The translations under genes and the position numbers were made by a program. From Thermosipho sp. (in: thermotogales) (GTDB lineage: Bacteria > Thermotogota > Thermotogae > Thermotogales > Fervidobacteriaceae), in contig JACDNZ010000008.1 of assembly GCA_017656345.1 (NCBI GenBank), positions 1-64,000 of the forward strand: a stretch of 64,000 nucleotides of DNA. Direction: 5' to 3'. The notes under the pieces were generated by a model. It saw only the letters and a list, made by a program, of their open reading frames with translations. It had not been told where the DNA came from and made no database searches. Of this stretch, positions 36,843 to 37,980 are shown one piece after another (the stretch's first letter is position 1; each line of letters opens with the position of its first letter).

Positions 36843-36861
36843 TTGTATATTTTAAAATATG

Positions 36862-36897
36862 GCCACCCCTTGGATTTGTCTAAGGGGTGGCTTTTTA
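36862..36897 (+). terminator. Terminator of the binding-protein gene
   Basis: A perfect 10-bp stem (36862-36871 with 36882-36891, GCCACCCCTT and AAGGGGTGGC), a 10-nt loop and a TTTTTA tail. Confidence 0.92.
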
Positions 36898-36942
36898 TTT
36901 GTATTGTTATATAATTATATTGAAGATTGTGTGAGGTGAGTT

Positions 36943-37980
36943 ATGAAAGCAGTTATAAATGCTGAAAAATTGAAAAGGGTTATCTCACATATTGATAAAG
37001 TTGCTGGAACGGTAGAACCAACCCATCGAATAGTTGGTGTAGCTTATCATAATGGAAATCTTGTGTTTTATGGTGGAGATGGTTGTTTTGCGGTAAAAGC
37101 AGAAATATGTGAGATAAATCCTACATCTTTAAAATTTAGTATTTTTTTAGATATATTAAAGTCTTTTGTTTTGGAATTAAAAGGAAATGTGTTTATGTAT
37201 TCTGATGGAAATTATGTTACTTTGAGAGTGAAAGAAGAGAATTTGAAATTAAAAGTTGGAAAGTTCAGGTTTGAAAAATTTGAAGATCGTTTTGATATTG
37301 TTGCAAAACTTAGTAAATCTTCCTTTGTTAATGATCTTGATTTTGCATCTTCACATATAGAAGAAGGTTGTATGGTTGATATGTATTTTGGAAAAAAAGT
37401 TAAGTTAATATCCGAATATAAAGATATTATTTGTTTTTCTTTGAGAGATTCCTATGATAGTAATATGAGTTTAAATTGGAGTATCCCATATTATACTGCA
37501 AGACACATAGTAAAATCATTAAAAGATAGTTTTTCAAGAGAAATTTTAATTGGAAAAGGATTAGAGCATCTGATTTTACAGTCAGATTACTTTTACAACG
37601 TATGTGGTGAGGAGATTGCAGAAAACAGGTTGTTTTTGGTGGAAGATGAAATAAAAAATAGTAAACTTATTTCAAAAATTGGTTCGAATCATTTTAAACA
37701 TTATCTAAGGCGTTCAATGATTTTGGGGAGAAACTCACAGGTAAAGCTAAGTGCTACAAAAAGGGGAATATTCTTTTATACTTTTTCTCGTGGTATGGAG
37801 TATAAAGGTATACTTGAAACGAATGTTGAAGGAAGCTTCACAACGACAGCCAATGCGTATTTCTTAAGAAGTGCGCTTAATAGAATAGGCGGTGAAAATT
37901 TAATATTAATGCTCGGAAAAAGTCATTTAATCATATCAACACCGCAGAAGAAAAGATTTATATTACTTAAAATTATTTAG
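36943..37980 (+). CDS. Divergent DNA sliding-clamp-like protein (DnaN fold)
   Basis: A 345-residue protein whose layout matches three-domain beta clamps. It begins [20 protein letters not shown] (compare the MK-start strand and helix of DnaN). A possible domain 2 start is near residue 125. The C-terminal stretch runs [19 protein letters not shown], then an ILMLGKS strand, ISTP and a basic end FILLKII, equivalent to the DnaN end with its final Met-Pro strand replaced. It is more basic than a normal clamp and shows little identity. It could be a second clamp or a clamp-related protein. It overlaps convergent ispG by 18 nt. I assign fold by memory of DnaN, not by search. Confidence 0.6.

Follow-up and report, generated by a model that had tools for sequence, protein, structure and literature searches.

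In the best-studied bacteria, a single sliding clamp with a single pocket serves polymerases, repair enzymes, and ligase. Specialised sliding-clamp paralogues within one organism are found in the crenarchaeal PCNA1/2/3 and the 9-1-1 clamp, and herpesviruses possess a monomeric processivity factor of the UL42 type, which has the clamp fold, is basic, and is linked to a polymerase. A second bacterial clamp gene was described in Bacillus, whose DnaN-2 has about 40% in common with DnaN-1 and, according to that description, can participate in replication (PMC3290774). The polymerase PolC is limited to a few phyla, Thermotogae among them, for which PolC and DnaE3 are listed together; the QLSLF motif is almost universal in PolC, and an exonuclease-less extra PolC copy has been mentioned in Thermotogae (PMC3919608). 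Here, we report that a 345-aa protein encoded in the window (the whole stretch of 64,000 nucleotides that was analyzed) is remotely homologous to bacterial DnaN and represents a second sliding-clamp-type protein beside the normal DnaN in nearly all Thermotogota.

The window belongs to a Thermotogota genome of 2.12 Mb in 88 contigs (G000). The open reading frame of the initial annotation (36943-37980) is real and intact, with an ATG at 36943, a stop codon ending at 37980, 345 codons and a good ribosome-binding site. A strong intrinsic terminator stands between the upstream sugar-binding-protein gene and the clamp-paralogue gene, while ispG (Pfam GcpE) is convergent with the latter and overlaps it by 18 nt. 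Because of this upstream terminator and the facing, overlapping ispG, the clamp-paralogue gene is probably a one-gene unit in the window. The coordinates of all features are collected in Table 1.

Table 1. Features of the clamp-paralogue locus, in positions of the window
Feature	Position	Strand	Basis
Intrinsic terminator of the upstream sugar-binding-protein gene	36861..36892	+	14-pair stem, T tail
Ribosome-binding site AGGTGAG of the clamp-paralogue gene	36934..36940	+	direct sequence reading
Clamp-paralogue CDS, 345 aa, stop codon included	36943..37980	+	ORF; orthologues in 97/103 Thermotogota genomes
Predicted processivity-fold domain I, about residues 1-112	36943..37278	+	AF2 secondary structure; colinear hhalign with DnaN
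D46-G47-C48, conserved in 87, 81 and 85 of 89	37078..37086	+	family alignment
Predicted processivity-fold domain II, about residues 117-225	37291..37617	+	AF2 secondary structure; colinear hhalign with DnaN
Signature IPYxSxRHxxK, residues 181-191, second helix of domain II	37483..37515	+	family alignment
C221, conserved in 85/89	37603..37605	+	family alignment
Predicted processivity-fold domain III, about residues 241-345	37663..37977	+	Pfam DNA_pol3_beta_3, AF2 model, charge count

The single window protein returned no match in NCBIfam, in the PDB (phmmer) or in a single-sequence search of the genome contigs, and it did not reach the curated cut-offs for DnaN (Pfam DNA_pol3_beta*, TIGR00663). 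Pfam DNA_pol3_beta_3 (PF02768) matched residues 239-336 at E 8.6e-4 (19.5 bits, with the Pfam cut-off at 27), and TIGR00663 was matched by one of 27 family members (E 9.8e-6). The family profile had a sole match in the PDB, the beta clamp 8dt6 (E 1e-6), and hhalign of the 27-member family alignment against an alignment of canonical Thermotogota DnaN gave a probability of 97.9 and an E-value of 5.3e-13 over 314 colinear columns. The AlphaFold2 model of the window protein (pLDDT 84.8, pTM 0.81), built on a low-depth alignment of six sequences, repeats the strand-helix-strands pattern three times in processivity-fold order. A second model, that of a Fervidobacterium orthologue with 28% identity (pLDDT 79.6, pTM 0.77), has the same fold order; in both jobs such confidence was reached in the best of five models only, and the alignments were low-depth. 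The matches listed by Foldseek for the window-protein model were bacterial beta clamps with a TM of about 0.8, and the Fervidobacterium model retrieved the same kind of match, including T. maritima TM0262/1VPK. The resemblance to clamps that had been noticed by eye is thereby placed beyond chance by the hhalign, PDB profile and Foldseek results. The proposed three-part layout agrees with the two AlphaFold2 models, which predict that a single chain holds three processivity folds in tandem, and the C-terminal stretch singled out in the initial annotation is the region matched, below the Pfam cut-off, by DNA_pol3_beta_3.

The suggestion of a second clamp was borne out by the search for a separate canonical dnaN, which located a gene for a 367-aa protein (P0002) at G000:C3:62168-63268 and so ruled out that the window gene is the only, ordinary clamp of the cell. 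A canonical DnaN orthologue was found in 58 of 61 relatives. A further full-length DnaN of 364 aa (P0003; L033:8500-9594, minus strand, L002) is located on the 24-kb contig G000:C23, which has a GC content of about 0.41 vs. 0.32 and carries genes that are helicase-like (large), methylase-like, ArdC-like, and mobile-element-like. P0003 was rejected as the canonical gene on the grounds of its GC, its mobile-element-like neighbours, and an identity of just 30% to P0002, the genome's own DnaN. As its base composition differs and the neighbours are phage- or plasmid-like, this contig is probably either foreign sequence that was binned with the genome or a mobile element belonging to the organism.

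Using the family profile, one orthologue each was detected in 97 of 103 Thermotogota genomes, whereas 287 genomes from outside the class had none at E 1e-4, meaning that the restriction to "this lineage" was true and that the family is broader than had been proposed, spanning the whole phylum. Among the six negatives, G081 carries the final 100 residues of the clamp paralogue at a contig edge. For the other five (G036, G042, G043, G048, and G054) an improved profile detected no copy, its weak matches being the positions of canonical DnaN; these genomes have both PolC and DnaN, include both species of genera g14 and g18, and look like cases of true absence, with the gene being dispensable there, or of divergence beyond detection. 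An alignment scan with one narrow pattern returned Thermosipho and Fervidobacterium only, and its silence elsewhere carries no weight.

In a joint tree with Thermotogota DnaN, P0003, and E. coli DnaN, all 89 aligned family members formed one clade, set off by a long branch (support 1.0). Of the eight GTDB families represented by at least two members, seven were monophyletic in the paralogue tree, the exception being f3, which fell into two groups; this monophyly fits vertical inheritance of the gene from the ancestor of the phylum. Judged by its identities, the clamp paralogue evolves faster than DnaN (69% vs. 86% within the genus, and about 25% vs. 43% to family f3). A simple recent duplicate, or a dnaN acquired from a phage and without a special role, could be imagined since many phages and plasmids carry DnaN; it is, however, contradicted by the distribution and by the tree, in which one phylum-wide clade tracks the families, as well as by a cleft loss and a charge shift that are consistent across the family. 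A phage or plasmid origin was moreover rejected because tblastn against phage and plasmid collections found no sequence relatives of the paralogue in either. Taken with these observations, such a duplicate or acquisition is extremely improbable.

Several copies deserve mention on their own. At G089:C9:270767-271662, the gene is split into two consecutive fragments, through a frameshift or an assembly error (the genome is 87% complete), and at G028:C1:11552-13094 a full copy is directly followed by a second, partial tandem copy. The loci L159, L161, L163, and L164 (family f3, genera g8 and g12) are very divergent and shorter, with open frames of 325-331 aa; the aligned members from g8 and g12 have Arg instead of H188, and in L159 and L161 the paralogue is flanked by genes for a LysM-like membrane protein and a protein-L-isoaspartate methyltransferase-like protein.

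The window protein had been described as basic for a clamp and as lacking the usual Met-Pro ending, and both descriptions are correct: its net charge is +12 (pI 9.3) vs. -17 (pI 4.8) for canonical DnaN of the same genome, and it terminates in RFILLKII where the canonical clamp has YIVLPVRA. Across 89 family proteins the mean net charge was +6 (-5 to +19), across 31 DnaN it was -17 (-28 to -6), and the two ranges are disjoint; the acidic protein with a basic channel that is typical of canonical clamps was therefore not found over this family range. Domain III is the most basic (mean net charge +9.0 in the family vs. -6.4 in DnaN), and the six channel-lining helix segments, assigned by clamp topology, carry +9.2 vs. 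+0.9. Positive charge is not universal, as the family includes proteins that are near neutral or slightly acidic (-5). In 29 canonical Thermotogota clamps the cleft positions 155, 172, 174, 176, 177, 242, 247, 320, 323, 346, 363, and 365 (E. coli numbering) are invariant, whereas the same twelve positions are unconserved in the paralogue, with any one residue at ≤ 0.56; the lone well-conserved cleft-aligned position is R152, here Gly (0.85). A conserved hydrophobic cleft for clamp-binding motifs, formed by domains II/III and the C-terminus, was accordingly not found in the paralogue alignment. In the inspection of cleft and dimer interface that the initial annotation had recommended, the cleft residues proved to be lost, the hydrophobic character at the positions aligned with the beta dimer-interface residues F106, L108, and I78 is mostly retained, and the charged interface residues are unconserved (only monomers were modelled).

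Two alternative readings bear directly on these properties. A heterodimer with canonical DnaN, i.e., an asymmetric ring with a single peptide-binding cleft that would limit or order the access of partners, with a parallel in principle in the heteromeric PCNA rings known from some archaea, is in line with the one-to-one coexistence of the two proteins, with a cleft that is gone while the interface-aligned hydrophobics are mostly kept, and with a charge opposite to that of DnaN, which could favour pairing. We nevertheless consider it unlikely, given that the paralogue evolves much faster than its supposed partner and that the charged interface residues are unconserved. Alternatively, the protein could act as a monomeric or open DNA-binding processivity factor similar to UL42, with a basic grip on DNA and no closed ring, as the strong positive shift (greatest in domain III) and the cleft loss might imply; the near-neutral or slightly acidic members and the mostly kept interface-aligned hydrophobics speak against it and make this reading unlikely.

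The conserved set of the paralogue comprises G22, E25, D46, C48, E141, R187, H188, K191, C221, and R314. R187 and K191 are present in 89/89 family members and H188 in 84/89, and clamp topology would have these Arg/His/Lys residues of the domain II helix face the channel. C48 (37084-37086) and C221 are each conserved in 85/89 and both gone in the three f8 species (one clade, one event); since they were lost together, a joint role is suggested, e.g., in a disulfide, a metal or a ligand site. By pseudo-symmetry, both cysteines may lie near the junction of domains I and II.

In 30 genomes of families f9 and f11, polC is located directly upstream of the clamp paralogue on the same strand (28 from the neighbourhood reading, plus G072 and G076 from coordinates), at a spacing of -11 to +11 nt and with the clamp always downstream. 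This adjacency was present in 14 of 21 genomes of f9 and in all 16 readable ones of f11; ruvC directly precedes polC wherever sequence covers that stretch, and the sole ordered core common to both families in the set sampled first consisted of ruvC, polC, and the clamp gene. In families f1-f5 and f8 the paralogue and polC are apart, as they are in genus g20 of f9 and in the genome that contains the window. In the window's genome polC is found on contig C29 behind ruvC, its product ends in QPTLF, and the clamp gene is not there. Other neighbours (named from sequence reading) are alaS/hsp33 in f3, topA-ddl in most of f2, and a YchF-like GTPase in f5. From alaS as TM1396 and hsp33 as TM1394, we take the T. 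maritima orthologue to be TM1395, and in Thermotoga-like genomes the orthologue can be located between these two genes. A description of a second clamp in Thermotogota was not found in the open-access literature, including under TM1395 (unrelated papers only), and absence there is no proof. The polC adjacency may be the relic of a single ancestral arrangement. PolC from polC-adjacent genomes carries the C-terminal motifs QITLF, QIRLF, QMSLF, and QISLF; as it ends in a motif of the clamp-binding type, it presumably still binds canonical DnaN. Several f9 genomes (e.g., G060:C1:1829532 and G096:C1:1985005) have an extra, shorter PolC-like gene with a frame of about 900-1020 aa beside the main PolC.

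The varied gene neighbourhoods outside f9 and f11, together with the joint loss of C48 and C221, would be compatible with a clamp-derived regulator or structural protein acting away from the fork, for instance by sensing a ligand or the redox state through these cysteines. With the polC operon in two families and the conserved Arg/His/Lys on the channel-side helix both arguing against it, we regard such a role as distinctly unlikely. The initial annotation had left the choice between a specialised clamp and a clamp-derived regulator; a second clamp-fold protein does exist, and the polC operon in two families tilts the choice towards a replication role.

The reading we prefer is that this phylum-wide DnaN paralogue has specialised as an accessory clamp for PolC, the replicative polymerase, and we give it about an even chance of being right. 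The polC operon in f9 and f11 speaks for a function at the fork, and the cleft loss, together with the stronger basic residues on the channel-side helices, points to DNA contact and not to the recruitment of the usual partners; fork role and DNA contact combined favour an accessory clamp, which probably serves PolC. In mechanistic terms, the paralogue would surround or grip duplex DNA, either as a homodimer or together with DnaN in a heterodimer, retaining DNA contact while having dropped the usual partner cleft. It would touch PolC, or the DNA product of PolC, using a surface distinct from the canonical cleft, and the C-terminal QxxLF-type motif of PolC would keep binding ordinary DnaN. Weighing against the accessory clamp of PolC are the polC adjacency in two families only, the slightly acidic members, and the five genomes in which PolC and DnaN are present and a copy was not detected. 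The wider view that Thermotogota replicate with two distinct clamps, DnaN for partners with clamp-binding motifs and a basic, cleft-less subunit dedicated to PolC (possibly in a mixed ring with DnaN), is a tentative one, with the chances leaning against it.

If this view holds, the usual assumption of a single beta ring for all partners in the bacterial replisome would break down across a whole phylum. Clamp subfunctionalisation would also have a clear bacterial example, in which a phylum-wide second clamp has dropped the pocket, become basic and stands with polC in two families, and there would be a handle on why PolC-bearing organisms need two replicative polymerases. As the proteins are thermostable and easily purified, their function is directly testable.

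Compared with known systems, the paralogue resembles bacterial DnaN (E. coli 2POL, T. maritima TM0262/1VPK) in length, in its three processivity folds and their domain order, in a TM of about 0.8, and in a colinear profile; it differs in being about 13-15% identical, in being basic instead of acidic, in lacking the cleft residues and the MPxR-type C-terminus, and in having its own conserved motif, IPYxSxRHxxK. Like DnaN-2 of Bacillus, it is encoded by a second clamp gene beside a normal dnaN (PMC3290774), but it is far more diverged (15%, profile alignment), cleft-less, and phylum-wide. The likeness to UL42 consists of the clamp fold, the basic charge, and the link to a polymerase. Finally, while the heteromeric PCNA and 9-1-1 clamps are PCNA-type trimers with two folds per subunit, the Thermotogota paralogue is of the beta type, with three folds.
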